A stretch of DNA of 64,000 bases from Bryoerythrophyllum caledonicum (lineage: Eukaryota; Streptophyta; Bryopsida; Pottiales; Pottiaceae), in contig OZ020518.1 of the NCBI GenBank assembly GCA_963971425.1, forward strand, positions 9,651,989-9,715,988, written 5' to 3'. The position numbers and the translations under genes are program-made. Below, in pieces: positions 10,138 to 53,801 of the stretch. Below the pieces are notes generated by a model. The model did no database searches. It was given only the letters and a program-made list of their open reading frames with translations, and was not told the DNA's origin. Position 1 is the first letter of the stretch. Every line of letters begins with the position of its first letter.

Positions 10138-10403
10138 TAACCCCTAAATTTCAAAGAGGCCCCTCATGGGACTTTTGAAGGTTAGGGTAGGTTCCTACTG
10201 TGTCAATTTAAAACATTCTTTTTTGATATTTTTTTAGTAGATGGACATTACTAAAAGCTGTAAGTGAGTCTAAATTTTTCCTAAATCCGACATTTAATGG
10301 AAAAGTTATAGGGTTTTGAAGTTCAAATGGGGAGAGCGAGCACGTCGGACAACTTCCAAAACCTTTTGCTGGGACACTCTATTGAATGTGAGATTTTCAA
10401 GAC
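10138..10403 (+). repeat. Dispersed repeat B, copy 1 (cut by a LINE tail)
   Basis: Shares ordered landmarks with 28603-29025 and 39838-40247: CCCTAAATTTC, TAGATGGACATTAC, AAAAGTTAT, GGACACTCTATTGAATGTGA. The match stops at about 10403, where the LINE tail begins, as expected if the LINE inserted into this repeat with 5' truncation. Confidence 0.6.
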
Positions 10404-11685
10404 CAAACCATCCCAACATCCATGGTTGAAATGCTCCACAATTGCACACAAATCACCACACTACATAAAGTTCAAGCCCATGCTAACATAGACAGTAATG
10501 AGCAAGCCGACAAACTAGCAAAAGAAGGTCGTGAGAAAGCATACCAAGATGTCAAACACCCATACAAACATGCTTACGCCACTCCATACTACTTTCATAG
10601 ATATGAATCGCCCTCTATGGGCGAGACCCCTGACAAAGGCCCCATAAGATTCTTGGATAAATACCTCAAAAAACACGACCTAAAAAATAATTTGGAAATA
10701 CTTACGGAAAAACTCCCTAATATTGAGAAATGGACCGGTAATACAAAACATTGACAAAGAACTCTCCACCAATTTTTGGGAAAACCCCATTATTACAGAT
10801 TCACAAAAAAACTTGCCTAGTCAAATTCCGCACCGGACAACATATGGAAACGCCTGCAAACAATTCTTCTACAACATAGAAAGATTCCCCTCCACAACAT
10901 GCTCAATATGCCCCTCCACAGACCCGGACACATGGCTACACGTACTCCTCAAATGCCATAACCCTCATTTACATGCCCTAATTGTTAAATGCCACAACAA
11001 AGCGGTGTAGGCAATCCGTAAATTAATTGTGTCATCAAATAAATCCCATTGTTTTATCCTCATGAATGCCGGAACCTTCAATGACAACCCGCAAGAAAAT
11101 ACGGACCCCCCATGGTTGTTACCATGCACATGCGATACACAAAGATGTCATTGTAATGCCAGATTTAAACCCGACCTATTCTGTGTTAATGGGCTGCCAT
11201 ACAAAGACTCTCCACCAACCCACATTGACCCAAATTTTACCATTCAATTTATTGAATTCAAATATTGTAATGATAAATTCTCACCGGAAGCTATTGTTAA
11301 CAAAATAAATATATACCAACCACTCCTCAATGAAATCCAAGCACTTGGATGGAAAGTAGACCCCCTCATTGTCATCACCGCGGGTGCTAGAGCCACCACC
11401 TTTATCCCCTCAATGACAACCCTTGAAGAAACATTCAAAATCCCCATGACTACAATAAAAACCACCTTCACAAAAATTAACACTATTGCTATCCAACATG
11501 CTATGTCCATACTCCTACACAAAAGGAAACTCAAAAACGACCAACCCATACAAGACACACTAGACCCCCTTGAAAATCTACTAAGCATTTCATCGCATTA
11601 TGCCCCCCTAGCGGCATTGGTTCTTTGTTCCTGGATACTTGTTATGTGGTACATAGTGTCTATCCTCAAAGGTAGCTTGTAGCTC
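10404..11685 (+). mobile_element. 5'-truncated LINE tail: RNase H, CCHC knuckle, restriction-like endonuclease
   Basis: Three consecutive open segments encode the C-terminal part of a non-LTR retrotransposon ORF. First is the end of an RNase H domain (KVQAHANIDSNEQADKLAKE, about 10455-10530). Then comes a knuckle, C-x2-C-x9-H-x4-C (CSIC then HVLLKC, about 10897-10955). Last is a PD-(D/E)xK-type nuclease core in the 217-residue frame at 11029-11682: KPD at residues 47-49, E76 and K78 in IEFKY. A Cys cluster (CTCDTQRCHC) precedes it. The frame ends with a hydrophobic segment (residues about 193-212). Reverse transcriptase is absent, so the copy is 5' truncated. It is also broken: a frameshift lies near 10,730 and an in-frame TAG (probably from TGG) at 11,008. 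A second copy lies at 17455-18024. R2-, Dualen- and Utopia-like groups use such nucleases; the exact clade cannot be assigned here. Confidence 0.75.
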
Positions 11686-14360: not shown

Positions 14361-15419
14361 CAGCTCCTGGGACTGTTGAAGTCGGAAAAATTGCGAGTAT
14401 CGCCATCCACGGAGCTTCTAGGGCTGGGATTCGCATCCACCGGCCGACACTCGAACTTGTGTCCATCGTTCCAGTGCTGAACTTGACATTCTTTCGAGCT
14501 GGAACACAAGGCAACCTAGTTAGACGGATGGGTTCTGCTGAGAAAATACCACAATGGGGAGAACGACAAAAAGATGTGGGGCATACCAGTAGTTCATGCT
14601 CTTACACCGCGAGCATCGCCGTCTCATTTTGGTAGGCTTGTCACAGACGACGCAGGTTAGACCCGACGATTGCGCCCTCCGCGGAGAGGGAGCTTCCTGT
14701 CTAGACTGAGCTTCTAGTCTTAGAGCTTCCTCGTGTTTCCACCTCCTCTGTCTCTCCTCTTCTTCGGCCTCAGCTAGTCTCCTACGCTCCTCTTCTGCCT
14801 CTCGCCTAGCCTGCGCTTCTAGGTCTGCGCGCCTCCGCTGCCAATCCTGCTCCTCCGTTTGCCTCCTCCTGATCTCCTCCTCTGCGTCCCTGCGCTTCCG
14901 GTCCTCGATCTCGGCGCGAAGCTCCTCGGCCGCCGCCTGCTTCCGTCGCATGAACTCCGCTTCTTGCTGTTTCCTGCGCTCTTCCTCCTCCTCAGCTAGC
15001 CGCCTCCGGTTGAACGCGGAGTCTGCTTGTTTCCTACGCTGCTGCTCCTCATCTTCAACCTGCTTCCGCCTACGCGCGTCGCCCGACTCGTGCGGGTCCC
15101 GCCATCCACCTCCTAGCGCTGCATCGCCGCCGCGATCGTTCCCGTAGCCATTCCCCGGCGGCGGTCTCCGATGCGGCGATGAGTACTCCATTCCGGCAGA
15201 GGACTCCACCGGCGGCTTGTGCCGCATGTACTCCTGCTCCAACTCCCTCTCCGCCCGCGCATGCTCCTCCATCGCCAACCGCCGCAGCCTCTGAAACTCG
15301 GCCCGCCGCACATCGGTGGACTTCGCGTTTTGTTGCAAGCACATCCATACCACTACTCCTACTGCTATCAGCGGGAACAACACTACAGCAGGTATAGAAA
15401 TATCCAAAATTTCCCACAT
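14361..15419 (-). CDS. UBP15/16-type ubiquitin protease, exons 1-2 with MYND zinc finger (partial)
   Basis: Exon 1 runs 15419 to 14587 and exon 2 runs 14498 to 14361. The ATG at 15419 (MWEILDI) is chosen over upstream in-frame starts because a membrane segment follows at once (residues about 9-27), as in plant UBP15/16/17/19. A long charged Arg/Glu/Ala coiled-coil region (residues about 35-245) leads to a MYND finger. Its first half (C-x2-C-x9-C-x2-C) ends exon 1 and its second half (C-x3-C, HW, H-x3-C) opens exon 2. Joining TACTG to CTCGAAAG across GT-AG sites restores the canonical Cys, which is strong evidence for the splice. Exon 2 ends at a GTAACC donor. The catalytic UCH domain was not found, so this is either a gene with a very long next intron or a truncated copy. 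The family removes ubiquitin from substrates; the MYND finger suggests protein binding. Confidence 0.72.
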
Positions 15420-16037
15420 TTTAACCTCGTCCCCGCCTCCCATGCATCCAACCAACTCCCGCTCAGAAACCCTGAATCCAACTCCCGAACCCAAATAAGT
15501 ACACTCCACTTCCACCACAAAATCACAACGTCCTCACCAGCCGAATCCCCTCTCCTCCACCAAAGTCTAGCCACTGCCAGTACAGCATTGTACAAACACA
15601 CACAATAAACGCCGCCACGCCACGAATCTCGAGCCTCGCGACCAAGTCTAAACCCCACGCACCTGAACCGCACTCCCACCACTCCTCAAAAGACGTGCAC
15701 ACGCAATCCGAGACCACTCAATCCGCAGACGCATAATCGGAGACGGAGATCTCGACTGTGAAAACTACATGCCAAGGTGAAGACGTTTAAAGGCTGCGCG
15801 CGACTCAGCTGGCCTTGACAGAGGCCAGCGCCGTATTTGGACCAGGCCAGGGCTGGCTGCCGCTGCAACGGCTATGCGAAGAGCACGGAGCGCTAACCGT
15901 CGCCTGCAAGTTCCTGCGCACACATGCTCGGGCCGCAACAAATGTGCCTGCGCGGAGGTCGCGCGACGGCCGTCGCAGATTCCCGGGAAAGTGATGAACC
16001 CACCGGCGTCCGAATCTCCGTCACCACGGACGCGGCG
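15420..16037. promoter_or_regulatory. GC-rich upstream region of the UBP-type gene
   Basis: GC-rich sequence directly upstream of the minus-strand ATG at 15419, with CpG density well above the window average. Open frames on both strands come from this composition and carry no domain. It probably contains the promoter and leader; no specific element can be named. Confidence 0.4.
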
Positions 16038-16700
16038 CGATCTTGCCTTTTTGAAGATTCTGTGCGTGTGGATCTAGGATTCGGGCTTCACGGTTTCAGG
16101 TGATGTGACGGTTCTGTGGTTGAATCTCGCCATGGCTGCGTTGCATCATACAGAGGGTAGTACGTAAATGCGTCATACGATCCTAAAGGTGATAGACGTG
16201 TAGTTTACCGTGTTCCTGCCCTTTTTCGAAGATTTGGGAACCTGGGATCTAGGATTTGGGCTTGACGGTTTCAGGTGATGTGACGGTTCTGTGGTTGAAT
16301 CTCGCCATGGCTGCGTTGGATCATGCAGAGGGTAGTACGTAAATGCGTCATACGTTCCTAAAGGTGATAGACATATATTTTACCGCGTTCCTGCTCTTTT
16401 TGGAGATTTTGGATTGTGGGATCTAGGATTCGGGTTTCGCGGTTTCAGGCGATGTGACGGTTCTGTGATTGAATGGAGAGCGCGTTCAGGGGAGAGTAGT
16501 ACGTAAATGCGTCATGTGATCCTAAAAGCGATAGACATATAGTTAGCATTGTTCTTTCCTTTTTTTAGATTTTGGGGATGTGGATCTAGGACTCGGGCTT
16601 GACGGTTTCAGGTGATGTGACGGTTCTGTGATTGATGACTGCGCAGTGACAAGTAGAGGGTAGTGCATAAATGCGTCATCCGATTCTAGAAGCGATAGAT
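16038..16700. repeat. Four-unit tandem repeat, unit about 163-175 bp
   Basis: The word GGATCTAGGA(T/C)T(C/T)GGG recurs at 16070, 16245, 16419 and 16582, each time followed by CGGTTTCAGGTGATGTGACGG-like sequence and, about 90-100 bases later, TAAATGCGTCAT. Units are about 175, 174 and 163 bp. Similarity falls from the first two units, which are nearly identical, to the fourth. The array lies about 650 bp upstream of the UBP-type ATG. Confidence 0.85.
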
Positions 16701-17454
16701 TTTTTAACTCCTGACCGACCAAGTGTTCCTCTGGGGACGAATCTTTTTCATTTTGAACGTAATCATCTTTCAATCTATACGGTCAAAATTCGCAAAATGT
16801 TTACCATATCATCTCATGCAAGTGTAGAAGAAGATCCTATGGTTACATTCTCAAAAAATTCCTCTTGGAAGATTTAAAACAATGGAGTAGAGATTCCTCT
16901 AAAATACCTTGGTCCTTCAAGGGTTGAAGATTTTGGTGGCTCTAGATGATGTTGGTTTTAGGTGCAGTGTTGGTTCTGTTGCCATGGCTCAATTGTATCG
17001 TACGTGGTACTGTTTTTTTTGTGGCAAAATTTTGCCTAATGGCTAAATTTTTTACCCCAGCCACATTTCAAGTAGAATTACTCTGCATTATCATGAAATT
17101 AAGTGCTAGAGATGGGCCAGGATGCCCCTCCCCTATTTGCCATCTTTCTTCCCAGGAATTTAGAAAGGGTATAGAAGGAAACTATATAGAATTGTCGATT
17201 GTTTTTGGATTGTCCTACCTCAGTGGATGGTGTCAGTGTTAGGGAATTGGCTAGTCGCCACCCTGTCAATATTATGTTTATTTTCTAGATGAATATGTCT
17301 CCTTTTTATGGTGGCAAATGTTTAGCTAAAACTGAGCACAAAAAAGGGTGCTTGATGGATTCTACAATATATTCTGTTTGGTAGTCTTTATCATTTATCT
17401 CCCTTTTCTAGTTTGCTCCTCTATTCCCACCAAACCACATAGACCCTAGTCTCA
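16701..17454. other. No gene recognised
   Basis: Contains a short stretch related to dispersed repeat C (CTTTCAATCTATACGGTCAA, about 16768-16787). No coding or structural feature is convincing. Confidence 0.4.
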
Positions 17455-18024
17455 CTATTTAGTTTATTGAATTCACATATTGCAATGATAGATTCTCTCT
17501 AGACACTATTGCAAACAAAACAAATAAATATCAAAAACTACTTGACGATATTTAAGCACAACGATGGAAAGTAGACCCCCTCATTGTCATCACCGCGGGT
17601 GCTAGAGCCACCACCTTCATTCCCTCAATAATAACCCTTGTAGAAACATTTAAAATCCCCATCACTTCAATCAAAACCACCTTTTCAAATATTAACATTA
17701 TTGCAATTCAACATGCTATGTCGATCCTCCTACATAAACGAAAACTTGAAAACAACCAACCCCTTCCTGACACTTCGGGCCCCCCTCTATAGACTAACAT
17801 TTGCATTTCACCGTTCACGCCCTCCCTCTTATGGAGACTTTTGGAACCTATGGTCCTTTGTTCTTGGCTACTTGTTACTAGGTACATAGTGTCTACCCTC
17901 GAAAGGGGGAGGTAGTTCCATACTATTAACCCATGCCCGGTGGGCATGGACTTAGTGGTGGAATGAACGGACACTTTATTCACGCCGGCCCCCTCCGGGG
18001 ACCGGCCTTCTTCTTCTTCTTCTT
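17455..18024 (+). mobile_element. Second LINE tail fragment with intact-looking 3' end
   Basis: Homologous to the nuclease part of the LINE tail at 10404-11685, starting at the E-x-K region (TTATTGAATTCACATATTGC) and including a near-identical stretch around GTCATCACCGCGGGTGCTAG. The stop TAG is at 17913-17915 and the last codons again encode a hydrophobic segment (VLCSWLLV). The short 3' untranslated region then carries two hairpins: a perfect 8-bp stem with a GGT loop (CCATGCCC/GGGCATGG, 17931-17949) and a GC stem (GCCGG.../...CCGGC, 17984-18006). It ends in (CTT)6 at 18007-18024. Hairpins and a microsatellite tail are known 3' features of some LINEs. Heavily 5' truncated and not coding-competent. 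Confidence 0.7.
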
Positions 18025-20548
18025 GCTCCTCTATTATTACATTTTGAACTAATGCTACGATCTCATTGTGGCTAAGCTTGCATTTTAACCTTTTAAGGAC
18101 AACACCTGCGACTAGGCCTGAAGATGTCACTATTGGGTACATTTCACCACGACCGGTCATTACATCATCTACTCATTGGATACATTTCATTGTGACTAGT
18201 CATCACAAACATCACTATAGTTCGCCCGTCAAACTCCAAAGCACATTCTCATCGCATTCATTGGAAGCATAGGGATCCAAGGAACTTTAATAGGCCGCCA
18301 ATAAAACATAGATGAAGTATTGCTCCGCAAATTCACAAAATTATTCCAAAATGACCACCTGTGGGCTTCTTGTCCTTAACCCCCTTCCAGTGCCCAAGGA
18401 AAGTGTGGCTACCTTTTCTAGTTTACATTGCATTTTCCGGCACCTTTAGGCATTAAAGAAGCGCTTTACACAGCTCTTCTGCAAGGGCAGTGCCCAAAAG
18501 TGTCAACCAACATTTTTTCGGATAGATCTTGATTTAGGAATTCAAATGTAGCACTGTAGTAGATTAACAATTTTTGTACATGATGACGATTTTGTGTGCT
18601 TTTCAATCTCCAGCATTGGGATACTTATGCTGTGATACTCGGGTGATACTATTGATACTCGTATTTTCAGCTTCTCCACAACTAATACCCTGGTGATACT
18701 ATGTTTGTACTATGGGAATGCTAGGGTGATACCCTACTAATGCTTTGGTGTGAGTGGTGGATATGTCTGAACATTGGTTGCCAATTGAACATAGGTCCAA
18801 AGCGCAATTGGGACTAGAGAAGGGAGAAAAAGATAAAGGGTCTCGTTAGAAAACAATAAATTGTAGACACCATCAAATCACTTTAGCAATTTCTTAAGAT
18901 TTTTGTGGCATGGAGTGAGTGGCAAGAATGGATGGTAGAAAGTCGCGAGTAGTGTGAATCTGCAAGCATAATCAAACCTCATTTCCGTTACGGCAACCAA
19001 GCGATTTTTTGCACATCATGTATCTAGACTTAAAAAAAAGATAATGGTGAATATGGCTGATTGTTGTGAAACCACCACGTGGCATTAACACTCAAGCCCT
19101 AGTTTTGAGCTACATGGCGTGTCTTTCTAGGTTTCAAAACATATGACACATACTGTTGAGCTACATCTCTGAACTTGCGAGGACTTCGCACTTCACTGAT
19201 GGCAACCATCCTCATCAATTGTTTTGCTATGTGGACAAAGTGAGCCCTCAAAGGTGGTCCTTGATGGTTTTGGGGCAAGGGCGTGGGAACAACTCAATCA
19301 ACCCCAAGATTGTCCACATTGGAGAAAGTTCATCCACGTGAATCTTATGGTTGTGCTTGGGCTTGACTTCACATGATTTGGTCAACAACTTCAGATTTTA
19401 GCAAAGGGCCATGGTGGTTGGGTGAGGTCATTTTTTTATTTTTTTTTTAGATTGGAAAAAAATCGGGCACAAGTGACAGAAAGAGTGGATTGCTTTGAAT
19501 GATTGGAGTGGGGGCGCTGCTAGAACATAGGTTTTGGGACCGGTTTTCAATGCCATAGTGGATGGTGATTGGTTGAGAGTTTGATGAAACTTTGTTGCCT
19601 TTCATTTGAACGATTGACCATACAAGTTGGAACGTTGGAGGAAAGTTTAGTGGATGAAAAGTCTATTTGTCTATACAGAAATGGAATAGAGTTATTTATG
19701 TAGTCACCATTGTTTCAATAAGATGTCCACTATTGATTTGCTCTTAACCCCAAAGGATAATTTGTACAAATTGAGTTTGTGCAAGTTTCTAGAACTCAAT
19801 TTTGAAGATAATATTTTGAAAATTTTAGAGAGAATAGGAATATGGATTATCTTTGCGAGGTTTTTCCTTCTATTTTTTTTATTAATTCTATGGAAAAAGT
19901 TATGGTGCTTCGAACATCAAAAGCTCGAGCTTGGCATGATACCATAGAGATGAAACTATTGCACTTTTTTGAGGCAGGTAGGAGTGAAGAAAAGTTCTTG
20001 GCAACCCTCATTGTATTTACTTTTAAAAAATAAATAATGGATTTTACTTTATTTCAACAAAAACAAAATTACTACAAGGCATTAAAATTATATCCACTAT
20101 TCTAATTTTAGATCCAATGATTCATTTTGTATCTATGAAACAAAATCACTTGTCTATATAAATGCCTACTTTCTATATCCCTAGTAATTACAAGTCCAAT
20201 TCTCTTATCCAAAAAATCTCCATCACTTGTGATTTTTGGCGTGCAATGACCTCACACAAGGTAGAACATATATCCATAAAAATTATGCAATGTGTAGTAA
20301 GAAAATATGCCATTATCTTGAGTCAAAGTATGTTAACCTTGTTCGCGCAAGGGAAGGAAAAAAACATATTGCACTCTTTGTATGCATGTATTTTACAATC
20401 CATGCAGTCAAAGTTTACAACATGTTTTGAGTGTCTTCTTGTACTAGTGTACTTGAAGATTCTATAATTGAACATAGTAGAAAATTGTTTCAGTTAGTCT
20501 TGCAACGACTCATCTTAGAAAGGCAGTTTTGGGGTGGTTTTGGTGATA
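18025..20548. other. Unassigned intergenic DNA with degraded repeat fragments
   Basis: No gene is recognised over about 2.5 kb. A plus frame at 19156-19341 (61 codons) and the frames around 19723-20467 are AT-rich or lack any known domain. The 18,600-18,760 stretch repeats GGTGATAC/TGATACT words, also seen near 38,270. Confidence 0.4.
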
Positions 20549-34505: not shown

Positions 34506-36299
34506 TCAAAAATTTGTCCAACTTCCTTTGGATTTCAAAACAGCTGTAATTTGAGCAGGCATCCTAGCATACAACTTCCTACACTCACCTACACTGATAG
34601 AAACAGAAACCTCTTCAATACGAGTCTACAATTCTTAGAGATTCCTTGGAGCAGTGGGATAATAAATCAATCTCTGTTTCACAGAAGCTCACACATGTTC
34701 AATGGGATTCAGGTCGGGAGACTGAGCAGGCCACTTCATAACATCATATGGTTGCTCCCAAAACCATTCTCAAACAATCTTAGCCGTGTGCACAGGAGCA
34801 TTGTCTTGTTGAAAAATAACTTCATCGAGATCAAAGTCAAAATCTACCAATGTAGTGTATAATTCCTCCTGTAACAGCTCAAGATAATTTATAGCATTTG
34901 TAGTTATTGTTTTTGGTCGGATTGGAAATAAACCCAAAGCACCAAATCAATATAGGTGGATTTGTTCGCGGGGAAAGACTGTTTATATGAATGCCACTAT
35001 GTTATTGTCACGATTGATTACACACTTGCTTGCTAACTTCTCTTAACAGTTATCAACACTCAATCACTCTCTCTTGCATCACTCTAAACCTAAACATTTT
35101 CCAATTCTCCATTCTTCATTCCTCATGATCTCATAATCATGTCAATTTCTATTTTCTTCACTGTAATCACTGTACAATGCATTCAATAATACGTGATTAT
35201 CTTACCGTAATCACTTTTAATAACCAATTCTTTCACAGAGATTACAATCTCTTCACATTCATAATTCCATTCTCTAACTTTTCTATCTTCACAATTCTCA
35301 TACAATACTCATAAACTTCACTTCCAATCACACAATCACAGTTCTTTAACTCCAATTCCATTAATACTTCATCTAATCACAATCCTACAAAAGAAAATAG
35401 AAAATCCAAAAAAAAACAAAGAGGTAGCACCAAGCTTGCCCCGGCTTACGACTATCACAGTCTGGCCTCGAATCCATCTTCCACAAAGTCTTTATCCAAA
35501 AACTGAATCTAACTTCCAGATTCCAAACGTCACATGAATTTTCGCTTCTGAACCAACTTTTCACGTAACTTTCCAATCTTACTACTGAACTACGAAACTA
35601 ACTTGCTAACTTCCAAAACTAACCAATTCTAATCCGCATGTGAACACAAAAACTAATTACACATTCTACAGCATTCATCCTCCCATCTATCTTGTGCACA
35701 TTACATACTCCTCTTGAAATTAAACAACTCCAAAACATGACTGAACCTCCTCCACGTTTCACAGTTTGTTTGACAGTATGACTTGGAAGGTTCTTTTTAT
35801 CACGAATCCAACACCAAGTCCTTCCATCGGAATTAAAACGATTGACTCTTGTCTCATCACTAAAAACAACCCTCTCCGAATCCTTAGCTGTCCAATACTT
35901 CTGTATTTTAGCAAAAGCTAGTCTATCTTTCACATTCTTGGCATACAAAGCTGGCTTGGAAACCTTCTCTATTGCCCCTAAACCTACGTCTCTCAAAGCA
36001 TTTCTCACTGTTTCAACAAAAACATCCACTCCCGTCTCAGTTTTGAGTGCTCTCGTTGCTTGAACTGCATTCTCCAACCTACCTACAGTCATTGAGCGTA
36101 CAACAAATCTCTTCTCATAACTTTTTAAAGCCTTTAAACGCCCTTTTTTTGACATGTCAATGTTCTCAAAGCATTTTTTTCTAATTATATTCACCGTAGA
36201 CTGCAACAATCCCACCGCTTGTCCTACTTTTCTACTGCTGAAATTCTTTTGCAAAAGCGCAACTACATTCAACTCTTTTTCATTTGAAATGGACCTCAT
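34506..36299 (-). pseudogene. Tc1 transposase reading frame (split)
   Basis: The first part, 36299 to about 35670, is open for about 210 codons (MRSISNEKEL onward). The last part is recognisable from about 34895 down to the stop at 34506-34508. Together they have the size of a full Tc1 transposase (about 340 residues). It would cut and paste DNA at TA sites as a nuclear enzyme. It is inactive, because the coding sequence is both interrupted and mutated. Confidence 0.85.
34894..35675. mobile_element. Solo LTR inserted in the Tc1 transposase
   Basis: The insert spans 34899-35670 (772 bp), begins TGTAG and ends CTACA, and is flanked by GCATT on both sides (34894-34898, 35671-35675). TG...CA ends with a 5-bp target duplication are the signature of an LTR. 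No internal coding region or second LTR is present, so it is a solo LTR left by recombination. Superfamily unknown. It is younger than the Tc1 copy it interrupts. Confidence 0.8.
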
Positions 36300-36700
36300 T
36301 GTGCCTCACAACTTCTCTAGAAACACTAGAAACCTTCTACGCCCTCAGATAAACACCAACTACAAAAAATTTCACTCAAAACTGATCAAAATTGACAAAG
36401 TTTCACTCATCACAAGTTGCTTCAAAAGTGCTAAAAAAACTGAGTCTGTAAAGGCCGCCTCTCTTCCTAATCTCTCACTCAAATTCGACCACCTGTAATG
36501 AGATTAGGATTATGTGGCATGAATCTACATAAAAATTTCTTCAAACTATCATAGTTTCTAAAATTAGACAACTTCTAGAATGCCAGATGTTGCTCTCTAA
36601 AGTTGACAAAGTGAAACATTGAGTCAATATTTTGAGTCAGTGTATTTTGATATAATTTGGAAAGAATCGTGTTTCTATCTTTTTTTTCTTTATGACCCAA

Positions 36701-45109: not shown

Positions 45110-48100
45110 GCTCCGGAACAAGCACCGGCATGACTCCAAAGTTCGGAGGACTCTCCGGAGGAATTGTGACAAGGATTCGGAGAGTGAGTCCAAATCCGAC
45201 ACGGAGAGCGCCGAATCGAGCGGAGTTAGTCCACCATTTCGGAGAGCTTCTATTATTCGGAGTCACCGGAAGGACGGCGACGAACTGAGAGTCAAGGTGA
45301 AGGTGGAGACTCCGGACCCGGCAAGCAAATAATGAAGGACCTCACCAAGGCCATGACCAAGCTCTCCGTACAATTGGCGGCACCCCAAAAGACCTGGAGA
45401 GTCATCCCAAGCAACCGGAAGAATGTCTCGTGCAGCAACTATGGAGAGAATGGCCACAACAATAGTGAGTGCACACGCTCACTTCCCGTTCACTTCGTAG
45501 ATGTTGATGAATGAGGTACTATTCTGCGGAGTGCGAAGAGGAGGTACCGGAAGAATCAGAGGTCTACAACGTTGTTCCATCTACAGCCAGGGAAGAGGTT
45601 CCTATCCTTTCTACCAGCCCAGACAACAGGCCACCGGGAACTTCCAAGATAATACTTCACAGTCTAGGTCTACACTTCCAGTTCATAGGCAATTGGTGCC
45701 ATTTGTGAAGCAGTATGGTGTATGTTTTCTGTGTAGGGAAGCCGGGCATTTTTCCCGGGATTGGTTGGCAAGAGCTCAATTTGATGTGGGATATAACCAA
45801 GGAGCTACCATGCCAGAATTGTGGAGAGAATGGCTATACTGCAGGACAATGTCAGGAGCCTCTCAAGCCAAAGGTCATCTACAAGAAGGTTGACAACCCT
45901 CCCGGGAACAAATGGCCTTGAACTAGGGGCACGCGGGAGGCGTGGAACGGCCTAACAAGTGACAACCACCGGTGGAGCTGCAACCGGATATCGGAGTAAA
46001 TCAGGTAAGCACCCACAGCTTCGTTACCGATAGAATAGGAAGACACTCTCACCGCAGACCGGCCCGGCATGATCAGAGTCGTAGAATCCGGACCCCGGAA
46101 ACATCTGATGTATCCGGAGGTTCGGAGGAGGAGCCAAACCCTAAACCACTTATAGTGACTCCTCCACCGGTAGCTCAAGCTGAAAAAGGGGTAGGACTAG
46201 TCAACCCCCTTCCGAACATTAGCTAGGTAGTTAGAGATCAGATTAATAGAGATAGAGTAGAGCCTGGCACTAGGAAGGCGACATTTGCCGGTAGCCCGGT
46301 AATCATCCACCCGAACATAGGCATTCGGGTAGATGGGTTTGACATCTTACTGGATCTCCGGGCACATAAGGCCAATGTGACAATCGGTCAACTTCTACAT
46401 GACAATCTGAATTACCATAAGCAACTCAAGGACTCATTGATCCGGCCTTGTAGGCGTAAGATCAAGTTGCCGCTAGTAGCGGTTAATTTTGCAGAAGTTG
46501 AAGACCTTGGCGCTCCGGAGATCTTGGTAGAGATAGATGGATGCCTAATCCAGAATGTCCCGGTAGATGGTGGATCCGAAGTTAATCTTATGTTGGAGTC
46601 TACGGCTTCTGACCTAAGGTACACTAACCTCAAATCCACCGAGCAAACTCTCCGGATGGCAGACCAATCGAGAGTAGTTCCCGCCGGTAAGTTGTCCGGT
46701 ATCCCAACCTTGATTTGTGACACTACTTACCTTTTGAACTATATTGTTATCCGGGTAGGTTTGGGGAAACCGTTTCCTCTTTTGTTAGAGAGACCATGGC
46801 TCTACTTAGCCGGTGTCAAGGTGAATTGGGAGAGGAAGGCCTTTATCTTCAGTAATTCTCCGGTAAGCATTCCATCGCTTCTGGAAGAGCACCAAGGTGA
46901 AACCTCAGAATCTAAAGGGTATACCTCAGATTGGACAGACCCGGCGGAAACAGATTGTGTTTCATCCTACAGAAGATATGGAGCAGTGATCCCAAGATAT
47001 GGAGTTGGATTTTGATTTTCTAGAACCCGTCCCGGAAATAGGAGTGGTTAGCCCGGAATTGGACTCGGAAGACATTTCAAAAAGGAAATCGGTGGACCAA
47101 TCTTTAGGAGAATCTCATGATCTCTTTTCCTCGGAGTGGATTTGACAACAGATCAAGGACCAAACCCTCCCACTGGTGCCATGTAGTTCCAGTGGTAGAT
47201 CGGTAACTTGAGCGGATTTGTATGCCATTGCCGATGTGGATGAAGCTGAGAAGATCAAGATGGTGGTTGCTCCGGATGACTACAAAGCCATGGAGGTAGA
47301 GGTAGGTAAGACCTTCTACCAAGGGAAAAGACTATCTAAAAGAGAAGGTCAGGAGTAAATGGCTTTGTTAAAAGAGTTCTCTGATGTCTTTGCTTGGTCA
47401 CCGGTGGACTTGAGAGGAATCCCTCCGGAGTTGGGAGAACATGCCATTGATTTGAAAGAGGACTCCACTCTGGTCTGGCAACGACAATACTGGTTGGACC
47501 CCAAGTACTCCTTAATGGTTAAGCAGGAGTTGGACAAGTTGTTGGAAGCCGAAATTACTTACTCGGTAAAAATAATTCCAAATGGGTATCACCAATCGTG
47601 ATAGTGCTTAAGAAGGTAGGTGCGGATGGTAAGGTAAAGATCGAGGTTCGTCAAGATTTTCGGAAGCTAAATGCGGCGACTCGGAAGGATCACTTTCCCT
47701 TACCTTTCAAGTTTCATTGATATGGTTTTTGATTATGTTGCCGGTCAAGAATATTTCAGTTTTCTTGATGGGTTTTCCGAATACAACCAAATGTTTGTCT
47801 GGAATGTCGATCAATTGAAAACCACCTTCACTACCAATTGGGGTACTTTGCGTTCAATAAAATGCCATTTGGTCCTTGCAATGCTCCGGCTACATTTCAG
47901 CGGCTCATGACTAACATTTTCCGAGACTTTTTGAAGCATTTTCTGGAAGTCTTTATGGATGACTTCGCAATTTTTAGCCGGTGGGTAGATCACTTGACCT
48001 ACCTCCGGAAGCCATTTCAGAGACGTCGGGAAACAAATTTGAAGCTTCATCCCGATAAGTGTTTTTTTGGAATGATAAGTGGCTTGCTACTAAGTCATAT

Positions 48101-49557
48101 TGTTAGTAAACGTGGCTTAGAAGAACACTTTGACAAAGTGAAGGCAATATTGGCCTTGCTTCTTCCTAAAAGTGTCCAAAAAATTAGAGGATTTCTAGGA
48201 TGTGTGGGGTATTATTGCAGATTTATTTTCAACTATGCCCAGCTAGCTTCTACACTAACTGAACTACTAAAGAAAGAAGTTGAGTATGTATAGACGGAGT
48301 TTAGGCAACAGGCTTTCGAGGATCTCAAGAAGAAGTTGGCAACCGCCTCCATTCTAGCTCCTCCGGATTGGAGTAAGCCGTTCCACGTGACTTTGGATGC
48401 CTCCGGATGGTGTTTGGGAGCCATACTCTGGCAAGCAGACGAGGAAGACTGCGAGCATCCAATTTACTACGCCAGCCGGCAAATGAGCCCGGCAGACAAG
48501 AACTACATCGCAATAGAGAGAGAGGCTCTAGCCGTGATCTACGCTTGCAAGAAGTTCTGGCACTATCTATTGGAATATGAGGTGATTTTCTACACAAATC
48601 ATGATGTCTTGAAATACCTAGCAAACAAACCAGATTTGTCCGGAAGACTTGCTAGGTGGATTTTATTACTACAAGAGTTCAATTACGTCGTTGTAGTAAA
48701 ATCCGGGAAGTCTAATTGCAATGCGGATTATATTTCTAGGCAAAGAGGCCTAGAAAGTTCTACTAATATGCCCGCAGAGTTCCCAAATGAGTTCCTACAG
48801 CTCCCGGAGACTAGCCTCCCGGAGCCTGAAAGAGATGTTCCGGTATACCTAGTTGTAGGGACCGGACGTTCTAACTTCCAAAAGATTATAGAATACCTTC
48901 AGACTGGAAGATACCCAGCCCACCTCAACCGGAAGGAGAAGAGTGTTTTCTAACACCAGGTGCTGCCATATTGTTTGATTAGAGGAGTTTTTTCGAATGG
49001 GAGCGAACAACAAGCTTTGCTGTTGCTTAGAACCGGAGTTCCGGAGACCGGTCATTCGAGCATTGCACAAAAGACCGGCTGGAGGACATTTTGAGGCGGT
49101 GAGCACCATGGCGCCTATCCGGGAGGCCGGATATTGGTGGCCACATTTGAATAGAAATGTTAAGAAATTGGTGTGTATTTGTGACCCATGCGAAAGAACT
49201 GGGACGCCATCATTTCGGCATCATTCCGTCATCATTGGCGTCTCACATCCATAGTTTCGTTAGCACCTATTGCCAAATGGGGTATCGATTTCATCGGTCC
49301 GATTGCACCGGTAGGTTCCGGTAGTCACCAATATATAGTCCTGGCTACAGACTATTTTACCAAGTGGGTAGAAGCTAGAGCCACCAAGAGGAATGATGCT
49401 ACCACTGTCGCCACGTTCCTATTTGAGCAGATTTTGATGAGGTTTGGATATCCTCTGGGGTTGGTTAGTGACTGGGGTATCCATTTGTTGAACGACGCCA
49501 TTGAGCATATTACCGAGCGCTATCACATCAAGCACCGGAAGACAACGCCTTACAACC
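45110..49557 (+). mobile_element. Ty3/gypsy LTR retrotransposon, internal region, old and broken
   Basis: Parts appear in the normal gypsy order. A gag region has three zinc-knuckle-like boxes (about 45430, 45725 and 45810). An aspartic-protease-like region (VDGGSEVN, about 46570) follows, then reverse transcriptase (FMDDFAIF, about 47955), RNase H (TLDASGWCLGAILW, about 48390), the integrase zinc region (about 49080-49200) and the integrase core start (GIDFIGPI, about 49280). PR-RT-RNase H-IN order defines Ty3/gypsy. No 5' LTR was identified; on the right the element is cut by an LTR-like insertion at 49558. It is broken with many interruptions and looks old. A related copy faces it at 50.2-53.6 kb. 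Confidence 0.88.
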
Positions 49558-50029
49558 TGTAGAGCCTAAATTCTAAAAATAGCCTTTAATTTTTTTGTAA
49601 AAAGGGTTGTATATATATTGAGAATTAGATAATTAATGATTATGTTTATACTAAGTAGTTAATTAATTAAAAAGTACCTATTCATATCCAAAAATTAGGA
49701 TATAATGGGAAAAGGGTTGAACTCACATCCTTTGGGAAGGGTGTGCCTTTTCATGAATAGATGTGAATAGATGTGAGGGTTCAGCGGAATTAATCTTAAT
49801 GGTTAATTCTAGGGAAAACCTCTTGCCAAGAGGTGTGCCTTTTGGATTTAATGTAGAATGAATAGCTTGAATTTTTAGCATTCTTGGCCGTTGCCATAGC
49901 CATTCCTTGGAGGAAGATTGGAGTGAGCCCTAGCTTTAGGTGAAAAAGCTAGTTGATGACTCTTAATGTTGTAAGAGTATTTATTTTTACATATATATAA
50001 TTATTATTGAATTTGCATATGTAAAGTCT
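49558..50029 (+). mobile_element. LTR-like sequence inserted in the gypsy integrase, runs into the gap
   Basis: Starts TGTAGAGCCTAAA exactly where the integrase match ends, and shares ordered blocks with the minus-strand sequence ending at 56665: TGTAGAGCC, AAAAATAGC(C)TTTAA, TGTAAAAAGGGTTGT, a paired CTCTTxCCAAGAGGTGT word and AAGATTGGAGTG. The TG start and shared end suggest the 5' edge of an LTR of another family. Its other end is hidden by the gap. Confidence 0.6.
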
Positions 50030-50229
50030 NNNNNNNNNNNNNNNNNNNNNNNNNNNNNNNNNNNNNNNNNNNNNNNNNNNNNNNNNNNNNNNNNNNNNNN
50101 NNNNNNNNNNNNNNNNNNNNNNNNNNNNNNNNNNNNNNNNNNNNNNNNNNNNNNNNNNNNNNNNNNNNNNNNNNNNNNNNNNNNNNNNNNNNNNNNNNNN
50201 NNNNNNNNNNNNNNNNNNNNNNNNNNNNN
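50030..50229. other. Assembly gap (200 N)
   Basis: A run of 200 undetermined bases; the round length suggests a placeholder of unknown true size. It lies between two convergent gypsy copies and next to an LTR-like sequence, a typical place for assembly failure. Confidence 0.95.
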
Positions 50230-53200
50230 CCCAATGAAGTCTATCCCCCACTTTTCAAAAGGTGCAATGGGCACAATTGGTGTAAGTGGCGAATGATTCC
50301 GGAAAGTTGGATTTCCGGTCCGTTGGCAGAGGTCACATCTTTGGATGAAGGCTCCTGTATCCTTGCTCATGGTCGGCCACCAGTACCCTACCGCTCTGAT
50401 TTGTTCCACCGTGGTGACGGAGGCAAAGTGCCCCCCCCGCTGGTCCGTCATGCAGACTCCGGATGACCTTCTGTCAATATCTTGGCTCTAGACACCGTCT
50501 TAACTTTTCATCCGCTCCCATCCGGAAAAGTACTCCCCTGATGATGGAATACGGAGTTGCCTTTTGCTGGAACATGCTCTTTTCTTCCCTATTGAGGCCT
50601 TCCGGATAGTTATGAGTTTCTAGATAGTGTCTGATCTTCTCAAACTCCGGGTTGCTCTCCTCCACAACTTAGTAAATGGGAGCTAGAATCTCCGAATGTG
50701 GATCCTCTATTTCCTCGTTAACTTCAATCGGATCTGGAAACTCATTTGGAAACTCCGACAGGAGCTCCGTTAATTGTGGTCTCCCACGCTGTCGGGAGAG
50801 GTAGTCAGCGTTGACATAAATAACCAAACGCCTCTTCAGCTCTTCGAACGCTACTTGACGAGCTTCCGTCCAGATATAGGGAATTTCCTTCTTGAGCAAT
50901 TCTGTCAACGGCACGGCTATCCGGGCATATCCTTCAATAAACCGCCGGTAGTAGTCCGGATGTCCCACACATCCTAAAAACCCGCGGATTTCCCAGAGAT
51001 TTTTGGGAGGGAGGAGCACGAGCATGACCATGATCTTTCCCAGGTCCACTGCAATCCCATCCCTACTGACTATGTGTCCCAGTAGTAGTCCGGATGTCAT
51101 TCCAAAGAAACACTTACCCGGATGTAGCTTGAGGCGGGTCTCCCGGCACCTTTGGTATGTTTTCCGGAGGCAGTCCAAGTGGTCCTTCCGTCGGCTGAAT
51201 ACTGCAAAATCGTCAATGAACACTTCGAGGAAGTGTTTGAGGAAGTCCCGGAAAATGTCCATCATAAGTCGCTCGAAGGTGCCCAGTGCGTTACACAGCC
51301 CAAATGGCATCCGGTTGAAGGCATACGTTCCCCAGTCCGTCGTAAACGTCGTCTTCAGCTAATCCTTGTCCCGGATGGAAACCTGATTGTAGTGGAAAAT
51401 CCATCGAGGAAACTAAAACACTCTTGACCGGCTACATAATCCAAGACCATGTCTATGAAGGGCAGTGGAAAATTATCTTTCTTTGTGGCGGCGTTCAGTT
51501 TTCGGAAGTCTTGGCAGACCCGGATCTTGACTTTTCCGTCAGTTCCTACCTTCTTGGGGACAATCACTATGGGGAATACCCATTCTGAATTGTTGTCAGG
51601 ATAGATGAAGCCGGCTTCCAGTAATTTCTCCAATTCTTCCTTGACTAACATGGAATACTTGGGATTGAGTCGATATTGGCGTTACCGAACGGGGTTTGCT
51701 CTCTTAACCAGGTCGATGTGGTGCTCACCGAGTTTGGCCGGAATGCCTACCAGGTCAGACGGTAGCCACGCGAACACATCCTGGTACTCCGCCAACAGTT
51801 GCAGGTAGTCCGTCCGTTCTTGAGCCGACAGGTGCTTTCCTAGAAAGAAGGTCTTTCCATCCAGTACGTGGAATGGCTCGTAGTCCTCTAGAGATACCAC
51901 ATTTTTGATCCGATCCGTTTCCTCCACTTCTTGGTCGGTACTCAGCGCGGCCCATGAAAGGTTAACCGTTGATGAACTGGAAGGTATCGGTGGAAGTTTT
52001 CCCTCAGATAGTTGCGTCCGGATCTAAGGGAAATATATTTCCACATTGCATTCTCCTACCGACCGATCACCACCCTTTTCCTCCGAAGAAGATGAACCCC
52101 CCTGTTGTTCACAGATGACTCCCTGTTCCGGAGTTGGCTTTTCGAAACCAAAGTCCCTTTCCGTCACCTCTCAAAATTGCTGGACTTGATAAGACTGGAC
52201 AGAGTTCAAGCCTTCCGGATCCGACCATGTTGAGGTGTAGCCATCCGTATTGTCAGTTTCCCCCTGGTATACCTCTGCCATCTAGTCGCCAAGAGAGACT
52301 GACCGCCGGATCTCCGAACAAAAAGGCTTTCTTGGCCCAATTTACTCTCATTCCTGCTAGATAGAGCCATGGCCTTCCCAGCAGCAAAGGAAACGGCCTT
52401 CCTTCCCCGACCCGGATCACCAGGTAGTTGAGGTTGTAGGTAATCCCTGATATACTCGTGGGAATCCGGATAAGCGCCCGATCGGGACGACTCTCAACTG
52501 ATCTGCATACTGAGAGTTTGGTTGGTTGGCTCGAAGGTGGTGTACCATAGGTCTGCGGCGGTACTTTCAAGGATAAGGTTGACTCCGGATCCTCCGTCCA
52601 CTGGAACATTCCGGATGATACAACCATCGATCTCCACGGAAATTTCCGAAGCTCCAAAGTCCTCGATTTCTGCAAAGTTGACTGCTACCGGTGGTAGCCT
52701 GACCGATCGCTTCCTTGGCCTCACCAAGGCTCCTTTGAGCTGCTTCTGATAATTTGCATTGTCATGGAGTAGTTGGCCAATTGTTACATTGGCTTTCTGC
52801 GCCCTGATGTCCCGCAAAATATTGTACTCATCTACTCTCACCCGTGAGTCGGGTTGGATGAACTGATGAGTCTCATCAAACCTTACACGGCGTTCCAGGG
52901 TCTCCTGCTTCCGGTTAACCTCTATCCTGACCTCTGGACTAATATCGGGTATGAATTTGGATGGCTCCACCCCTTTCTCAACTCCTGCTGCTACTTGGGT
53001 GGCTTCTTCTCCTGACTCTCCGGATGGCTCGGACAACTCCGGGGCACTTTTTCTAATCCGGACTGTCTTAGCCCGCTCAACTATTGGGCTTCTCCTCTTT
53101 TTCTCTTTCGTGTTTCTGGCGGCGCTACGCGTACTGGCCTGATAAATGTTGTCTTCCTACGCTTTCGGTAGCTCTACCGTACGCCGTCAACTCGGGGGGT

Positions 53201-53650
53201 TCTCCACTCCGGCCTTGTGACCGTAGTTCAACGTTGTTTGCTCCCTAGGCGGAACCTCCACCTCTTGATAGACCACTCGAGATTTGGCCAGTTGCTGGCA
53301 TTGTGGTGCCGTGTGTCCGTAATGGCCACAATTTTGGCAAGGCAATTCTAGCGGAGCTCCCTGCCCTCCGGCGTACGGGCAATCCGGAAGGTAATGTCCC
53401 GGTTGGCCACACCCGAAGCACAATTTGTGTTGAGGTTCAAATGAAACCGGCCTTTGCTGCGCCCCTTGTTGACCTCCGGCGGGTGGATTCATCCCAGCTG
53501 CTTTGACTGGAGCGAAGCGTGGTTTAACCATAGGGACTTGACCTCGGCCCATTCCATAAGTAGGATTGGTTTGGTATACCGTCCAAGTGTCCTCTTCTGC
53601 CTCTTCTGCACAATTGGTGGATAGGATCTTTAGTGCAGATCTGCGGGCCT
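50230..53650 (-). mobile_element. Second Ty3/gypsy copy, internal region, minus strand, old and broken
   Basis: Read on the minus strand from about 53650: a gag part with CCHC knuckles (CFGCGQPGHYLPDC and CQNCGHYGHTAPQC, about 53470-53310), a protease-like region (VDGGSGVN, about 52585), reverse transcriptase (IDDFAVFS, about 51215), a short stretch before integrase, and the integrase zinc region with GIDFIG (50450-50230) running into the gap. Same family as the + copy, since the region before the protease (IGQLLHDN) and RT are close, but the proteins differ at many residues. The two are therefore separate, old insertions or different subfamilies. Broken, with several interruptions; no LTR assigned. 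Confidence 0.87.
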
Positions 53651-53801
53651 TGGCAGATAAGTTTCATTCGTTTTAGAGCTTCCTAGAGAGCACTTCGGTT
53701 TTCACAACATTTCTTTTTAGTTTCTTGTGGATGTGGTATGTTGACGAAATTTAGATGAGTTTAGTTGAGACACTGTTGTTAAATTGTTTGTTCATTGTGT
53801 T
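53651..53801. other. Spacer left of the RNase H-like fragment
   Basis: Unassigned short stretch. Confidence 0.3.

Follow-up and report, generated by a model that had tools for sequence, protein, structure and literature searches.

What kind of LINE leaves behind, in a plant-like genome, a 3' end in which an RNase H is followed by a CCHC zinc knuckle and a nuclease core? This is the question raised by the window, a stretch of 64,000 nucleotides corresponding to contig C6:9651989-9715988 of a searched assembly of 437 Mb and 894 contigs. An initial annotation had read the arrangement as the C-terminus of a LINE ending in a PD-(D/E)xK endonuclease, set it apart from LINEs that carry an apurinic endonuclease (APE), grouped it with R2-, Dualen- and Utopia-like elements that use a restriction-like endonuclease (RLE), and pointed out that many of these insert site-specifically. 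The new analysis retains the reading of the C-terminus and changes the answer. With a probability of roughly 85%, the two pieces found in the window are what is left, after 5' truncation, of 13-kb LINEs with a Dualen/RandI-like architecture, a family for which nuclease activity is predicted from sequence.

The first piece is a decayed, 5'-truncated LINE 3' part on the plus strand (10401-11685), delimited by blastn, tblastn and repeat comparison. Compared with a full-length relative (L031x) by blastn, it aligns at 10405-11547 and 11619-11672 with 82% identity; compared with ORF2 by tblastn, it is covered at 10401-10742 and 10684-11559, and an internal repeat match (D8) extends to 11685. Roughly the last 100-120 nt of the element, which hold its 3' hairpin and tail, are absent. 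All parts of the order that had been noted, namely RNase H, knuckle and nuclease core, can be read in translation on the plus strand. Specifically, the C-terminal end of the RNase H (HKVQAHANIDSNEQADKLAKEG) and the following linker lie at 10401-10742 (also found by tblastn of ORF2), and the knuckle CSICPSTDPDTWLHVLLKC, of the form C-x2-C-x9-H-x4-C, at 10900-10956. The KRHN landmark of R2-type RLEs, here decayed to KCHN, follows at 10987-10998, as identified by translation and alignment. The RLE core itself is contained in an open frame of 223 aa (11011-11682; ORF listing and alignments), with KPD at 11167-11175 (translation and alignment), an E-F-K at 11254-11262, whose E stands 27 residues past the D and which reads E-F-T or E-F-A in other families, and, in the alignment, a helix with a conserved lysine running through to the GAR motif at 11299-11391. 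This helix reads NKINIY here and NK..KY in most other aligned copies. The RNase H and the knuckle lie in different frames with stops between them, and because of these frame shifts the copy is considered dead.

The feature is nevertheless not a product of chance, since a genome search with 672 nt of this copy returned 41 matches, counting the window itself, with identities of 81-100%; two of them lie 1 kb apart and possibly belong to a single copy. The core pattern KPD..[DE]x[TAK]..K..Y..GAR, which was composed after R2 and these LINE copies had been inspected, does not occur elsewhere in the window (123,396 residues translated in six frames, both copies set aside), and none of 20,000 shuffles of the C-terminus produced it.

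The second copy that the initial annotation had reported within the window is confirmed at 17426-18024 on the plus strand by blastn and repeat comparison. It is a 5'-truncated 3' end that retains the 3' hairpin and a (CTT)n tail, is 88.8% identical to L031x by blastn and resembles a younger lineage in reading E-F-T at the E-x-K site. Flank comparison places a target-site duplication around it, with the left copy (TTGCTCCTCTATT) at 17413-17425 and the right copy at 18023-18035, the first TT of which is common with the tail. This duplication measures 13 nt, a length reached at none of 4922 control positions. Adjoining this copy, at 16041-16699, are four tandem units spaced about 163-175 bp from start to start.

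The genome-wide search for longer copies, which had been proposed as a check, led to the element behind these remains. Specifically, three full-length copies of 13,115, 13,436 and 12,943 nt are bounded by target-site duplications, all three exact over 12-13 nt; L031x has a duplication of 15 nt with one mismatch. The 3-5 hits per 300 in the matching control do not constitute a clean null, because its random windows could overlap the true site (maxima 25). At the 3' end of the element, a hairpin precedes a short stretch of (TTC)n, and a search with the 3' UTR gave 40 scored matches out of 2,695 candidates, 16 of them at 98-100%. Among the next 20 copies from the DNA search with the first piece, the reverse transcriptase (RT) could be seen upstream in three long ones (L011, L021 and L026), and L021 also displays APE motifs. 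A protein search with the RT part, in which 79 matches were scored among 6,825 first-look candidates, identified 26 whose listed open frame reaches 2,400 aa or more, with an internal stop in one case. Five copies with long frames (L029-L033) were read closely. Three of them are mutually 99.46-99.71% identical over 7.7-7.9 kb, and the other pairs reach 86.7-90.2%; the near-identity of the three intact copies indicates that the family was recently active, so that the description "once-active", although right about activity, was an understatement. A copy on contig C10:657853 lists an open frame of 4,622 aa, long enough to hold ORF1 and ORF2 in one frame.

The intact copies reveal an unusual layout. 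ORF1 has 528 aa in each of the three copies whose upstream sequence was read, and ORF2 continues for about 2,340 aa past a 2A-like motif (GDIExNPGP), with the domain order APE, RT, PCIF1-like domain, RNase H, CCHC knuckle and RLE. The 2A-like motif, GDIETNPGP or GDIEKNPGP, is present in all five copies and follows a low-complexity spacer coded largely by (AAC)n. It fits the StopGo core, given as (D/G/C/N)(V/I)ExNPGP in the available part of PMC12846837, and ribosome skipping may occur at this putative 2A site. Such sequences have precedents, as N-terminal 2A-like sequences are described from sea urchin in the accessible text of PMC4981915. Relative to ORF1, ORF2 lies in the -1 frame, the overlap being 22 nt in L032 and L033 and about 120 nt in L031. 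In the five copies, a reading in the ORF2 frame meets no stop before the 2A-like motif, spacer included (in four from inside ORF1; the L030 stretch begins later), whereas the two remaining frames are each interrupted 3-8 times upstream of the repeat, counted from the ORF1 stop or from where the stretch starts, and 0-7 times between the repeat and the 2A-like motif. As evidence of recoding, this upstream open frame is weaker than it appears, because the five copies had been chosen for their long open frames. A 2013 paper by Odon reportedly has 2A in APE-type LINEs as its subject. Two further features of L029-L033 deserve mention: in the 5' region, palindromes of the form AGTATA..TATACT are found downstream of ORF1 and ahead of the (AAC)n array, and the longest (AAC)n run differs by copy, from 41 to 180 units.

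The domains of ORF2 differ in how readily profiles recognize them. A Pfam scan of whole ORF2 proteins reported only RVT_1 (E 1.2e-29), PCIF1_WW and weak low-complexity matches; the APE and the RNase H went unreported there and appear only when their segments are scanned alone. In the intact copy L033, the RNase H segment then matches PF00075 with E 9.3e-15, and its D-E-D-H-D set keeps the H (AHANIDGNEQAD). The APE segment of the same copy matches PF03372 with E 1.5e-5 (25.3 bits against a cut-off of 24.5) and PF14529 with E 4.2e-6, in the latter case just below the cut-off (27.0 against 27.4 bits). Compared with PDB entries, the RT scores best against the R2 proteins 9nl2 (111 bits), 9nl3 (101) and 9dou (100), followed by human L1 (71-74) and Bombyx R2 (54-58, with 58 for 8gh6). 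The Pfam scans, which covered two ORF2 proteins, one ORF1 and two ORF2 segments that had no domain assigned, detected no protease family.

How strongly these parts are maintained was estimated from omega between L029, L032 and L033 (three pairs). The values are 0.08-0.14 for the APE, 0.05 for the RT, 0.09-0.14 for the PCIF1-like domain, 0.04-0.06 for the RNase H and 0.06-0.12 for the CCHC-RLE module. ORF1 gives 0.10 in two pairs with dS near saturation (0.95-1.33), and dS is also saturated in some values for the N-terminal segment. Both nucleases have thus been kept under purifying selection, the APE being about as conserved as the RLE. Selection does not single out the nucleases, however, because most interdomain linkers show a similar omega (0.06-0.14), only the linker between the PCIF1-like domain and the RNase H being looser (0.24-0.39).

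The proposal that the C-terminus carries a PD-(D/E)xK nuclease has gained support from several sides. The R2 proteins 9nl2, 9nl3 and 9dou display C-x2-C-x8-H-x4-C, RRHN or KRHN, KPDLIFV, VDVTV, EKVR[HK]Y and GAR; the young ORFs of the family display C-x2-C-x9-H-x4-C, KRHN, KPDLLCV, IEFTY, NK..KY and GAR, in the same order. The full series CCHC, [RK]HN, [KR]PD, [DE]x, K..[KH]Y and GAR is found in all five ORF2 proteins and in four of five further copies (L039, L041, L043 and L044), L042 being frameshifted there and the frameshifted L040 having been left out of this test. An hhalign comparison with R2 joined the CCHC, HN, KPD and K..Y landmarks over 115 columns at 25% identity with the acidic strand misregistered; its score was reached by 2 of 300 column shuffles (P 0.021, probability 2.2%). 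The corresponding values for the core alone are 0.017 and 2.7%. A profile search of the PDB with the RLE alignment A1 gave no match. At the structural level, an AlphaFold model from nine rows of several families reached pLDDT 52 and pTM 0.49, with blocks of 57-76 at residues 91-160 and an element order of alpha-beta-beta-beta-alpha-beta; an earlier model from 6 close rows had reached pLDDT 34. Foldseek placed R2 proteins in the top three PDB positions for the nine-row model (E 8.4e-5, 1.0e-3 and 2.3e-3, probability 1.00; TM 0.43-0.48 of the query, rmsd 6.7-8.1). They were followed mainly, at E 0.03 and above, by viral cap-snatching endonucleases, which have a PD-(D/E)xK fold. When a typed R2-like probe was used on its own, R2 came up at E of about 0.007-0.012 among what was largely noise, most of it designed PPR proteins; the E-values of the probe parts against R2 carry no meaning because the probes were written to match R2, and only the R2 letters were used from this comparison. 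Together with the low omega of the module, these data indicate, with moderate structural confidence, that the C-terminus is a PD-(D/E)xK nuclease of the R2-type RLE kind, as modelled.

One detail of the nuclease core has to be read differently. Both KPD and an E-x-K 27 residues further on are present as had been noted, but the lysine of the latter is not conserved across the group: of 20 old copies, 18 have K as the third residue, one has R and one cannot be read; the first window copy also has K, whereas all five young copies and the second window copy have T, as do four further copies, and another two have A. As such, the motif was correctly read, and the role of its lysine as a catalytic residue appears doubtful. 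A lysine is retained in the next helix, where NK..KY aligns with EKVR[HK]Y of R2.

The change from K to T invites the interpretation that the APE does all the cutting and that the RLE is a catalytically dead DNA-binding remnant, its loss marked in the young lineage by T and echoed by the A in two copies of another family. R2 itself, however, has D-V-T at this place, so that the change need not mean loss of the nuclease and loss is ruled out as a necessary reading. Moreover, the acidic residue and the lysine of the helix are retained, as is KPD (or RPD), and the module evolves under strong constraint, though purifying selection alone is no proof of catalysis. We therefore regard a dead RLE as unlikely. 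The converse, that the RLE cuts as in R2 and the APE is a relic, can point to the R2-like character of both RT and RLE and to an APE score close to the Pfam cut-off. It has to be set against the presence of N, E, D/N, D and S-D-H, which make up the APE catalytic set, against an omega for the APE about as low as for its partner, and against insertion sites that are unrelated to each other and fit an APE better; a relic APE is quite improbable.

The PCIF1-like domain is the most unusual part of the element. PCIF1_WW (PF12237) lies above the Pfam cut-off in two ORF2 proteins (E 2.6e-9 and 1.7e-8) and in two further copies, and a genome search with the profile, in which 150 of 2,614 candidates were scored, found all 150 above the cut-off. 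That the match might be a chance profile hit could be argued from the phmmer comparison with the PDB, in which the solved PCIF1 is reached at E 0.25 only, and from the catalytic NPPF motif of PCIF1, which is absent from the copies readable there. The breadth of the profile matches, and the fact that PCIF1 was the sole PDB match up to E 10, make a chance hit very improbable, and homology to PCIF1 is supported by these sequence comparisons. The domain was read in 15 copies: L011 and L023 are frameshifted at the motif, and the remaining 13 have A[H/Y]PH in place of NPPF. Methyltransferase activity of the PCIF1 kind is accordingly not expected from the motif, and we propose a binding role as a prediction. 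Copies from several of the PF12237 places differ by up to 37%, which implies more than one family. Specifically, 33 of the 150 matches have one common score and an open frame of 3,087 aa, as if a sister family had undergone a very recent burst of its own. An ORF1-ORF2 fusion was considered for it and rejected, as the upstream 216-nt piece (72 codons), taken as in frame by arithmetic, is open but low-complexity and not ORF1-like. Scans of viral contigs with the RT, RLE and PCIF1 alignments yielded nothing informative.

With the intact copies at hand, the question of site-specific insertion can also be revisited. For L029-L033 and the second window copy, six insertions in all, the 150 nt beyond the 3' end were compared for a common target site, as the initial annotation had suggested; they have no similarity among them, and for this reason there is no sign of site specificity. 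A LINE of the R2, R4 or Utopia kind with the RLE as its only endonuclease and probably a fixed target, to which the RLE landmarks and the best RT matches from R2 might have pointed, is hardly tenable and is in effect ruled out by the APE, which stands in one ORF with the RLE in intact copies, while the unrelated flanks and an RNase H located downstream of the RT, rather than upstream as in oomycete Utopia (according to the available text of PMC4640811), speak against it as well. Because of this N-terminal APE, the family is neither RLE-only nor R2/Utopia-like, and the part of the initial annotation that removed it from the APE-bearing LINEs does not hold. A longer copy with an APE had been named there as evidence against the proposal if it came with a C-terminus devoid of nuclease-fold support; the APE was found, and so was support for the fold.

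Target-primed reverse transcription is the natural mechanism for such an element, given the 12-13-nt duplications, the 5' truncation and the simple-repeat tail. Most likely, a nicked target would allow the RT to begin copying the element RNA at its 3' hairpin and (TTC)n tail. Staggered nicking would generate the 12-13-nt duplications, and early stopping of reverse transcription the 5'-truncated copies. The APE may set a first, weakly selective nick, the CCHC-RLE module may contribute DNA binding, the second cut or both, and the RNase H would remove the RNA strand. A more far-reaching joint reading, which we consider possible and put forward tentatively, would combine these elements as follows: -1 recoding takes place in the short overlap, the asparagine spacer coded by (AAC)n is read through, the ORF2 protein is freed at the 2A-like site, the PCIF1-derived domain without NPPF and with a selected A[H/Y]PH recognizes the element's own capped RNA, and the APE and the RLE share both cuts. 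If this were true, a recently active land-plant lineage of 13-kb two-nuclease LINEs would have built a new module for expression and RNA handling.

Several other features of the window and the assembly were recorded. The region 45501-53663 holds two polyprotein pieces on opposite strands, flanking a stretch of N near 50000-50250, with RT_RNaseH at 48294-48953 on the plus strand and RVT_1 (50669-51358) and a zinc knuckle (53187-53663) on the minus strand; we take these polyproteins to be Ty3/Gypsy-like. On the minus strand at 35619-36305 lies a Tc3-like transposase piece (PF01498, E 4.1e-9), here in a genome of plant-like character. An open frame at 14520-15533, also on the minus strand, combines a MYND-like cluster of cysteines with a hydrophobic segment and a charged part that resembles a coiled coil; it has no Pfam match at E 0.01 and is, we presume, reminiscent of plant ubiquitin proteases. 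Marker genes suggest a bryophyte-grade land plant as the probable host: rbcL stands beside a frame resembling accD, AUX/IAA matches occur at two places, LEAFY-family matches are present, one of them strong, and a YABBY search gave no match, which by itself does not establish absence. Small contigs of the assembly (C821, C590 and C894; L037 and L038) carry rbcL in two or more clearly distinct versions, which may represent a plastid and a transferred copy or, alternatively, a contaminant.

How, then, does the family relate to known LINEs? Plant L1 elements with an archaeal-like RNase H likewise unite APE, RT and RNase H in one element; we know of no RLE in L1. The archaeal-like RNase H, furthermore, has an R in its catalytic set according to the available text of PMC4640811, in contrast to the H of the D-E-D-H-D set found here. 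R2 (9nl2, 9nl3 and 9dou) shares the ordered series CCHC, [RK]HN, KPD, D/E-x-T, K..[KH]Y and GAR and is the best Foldseek match, but its CCHC has the spacing x8 instead of x9, and the RT of Bombyx R2 (8gh6, 58 bits) scores below human L1 (71-74 bits) against this family. To our knowledge, R2 has no APE, unlike the elements described here. R2 inserts into rDNA, as stated in the accessible part of PMC12203849, whereas the insertion sites of this family are unrelated. Utopia is similar in its RLE and, in oomycete families, its RNase H; it differs in inserting into U2 snRNA genes and in having the RNase H, where present, upstream of the RT (available text of PMC4640811), while here the RNase H lies downstream and no common target is seen.

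Of the groups initially suggested, the two-nuclease architecture of Dualen is therefore the one that stands, and the RLE-only R2 and Utopia are set aside. Dualen reportedly carries a cysteine protease, according to its 2005 abstract, a feature not found in the Pfam scans of this family, and for this reason we file the family as having a Dualen-like architecture and not as a proven Dualen member. The assignment as Dualen-like, with a PCIF1-like domain and a 2A-like motif added, is set by predicted domain architecture and not by RT phylogeny. Set against the descriptions of Dualen/RandI, the family differs in its length of 13 kb, its probable land-plant host and its (TTC)n tail and, within the coding part, in the PCIF1-like domain and in the 2A-like motif that follows a long in-frame (AAC)n spacer.

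In the portions of the literature available, Dualen/RandI is known from Chlamydomonas relatives (PMC8226300) and cryptophytes (PMC12747079); a 2015 survey (PMC4438587), which covered 257 species and included 80 land plants, has it in its accessible text only under 'protists' (green algae), and the LINEs named in the available part of a 2022 review of land-plant elements are L1 and RTE only (PMC9033089). Within a literature search whose scope left aside most subscription papers and Repbase, no title or abstract start concerned a land-plant Dualen or PCIF1 in a LINE. The likenesses are nonetheless substantial. Dualen/RandI is described as the group with both APE and RLE (excerpts of PMC4640811 and PMC3636483), and this family likewise combines an APE with a PD-(D/E)xK-type nuclease in one element; it shares the RNase H (PMC4640811, available text) and a 3' simple-repeat tail, which in green-algal RandI is (ATT)n or (CTATTT)n (PMC3747384, available text) and here (TTC)n. 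LINEs with two nucleases are regarded as marking the stage of LINE evolution in which the APE took the place of the RLE (PMC4640811, available text). Which nuclease makes which cut becomes a testable question in a family that was active recently and in which selection acts similarly on both. Its captured PCIF1-like domain, which has lost the catalytic motif and is strongly conserved all the same, furthermore hints at a new way in which retrotransposons may handle RNA.
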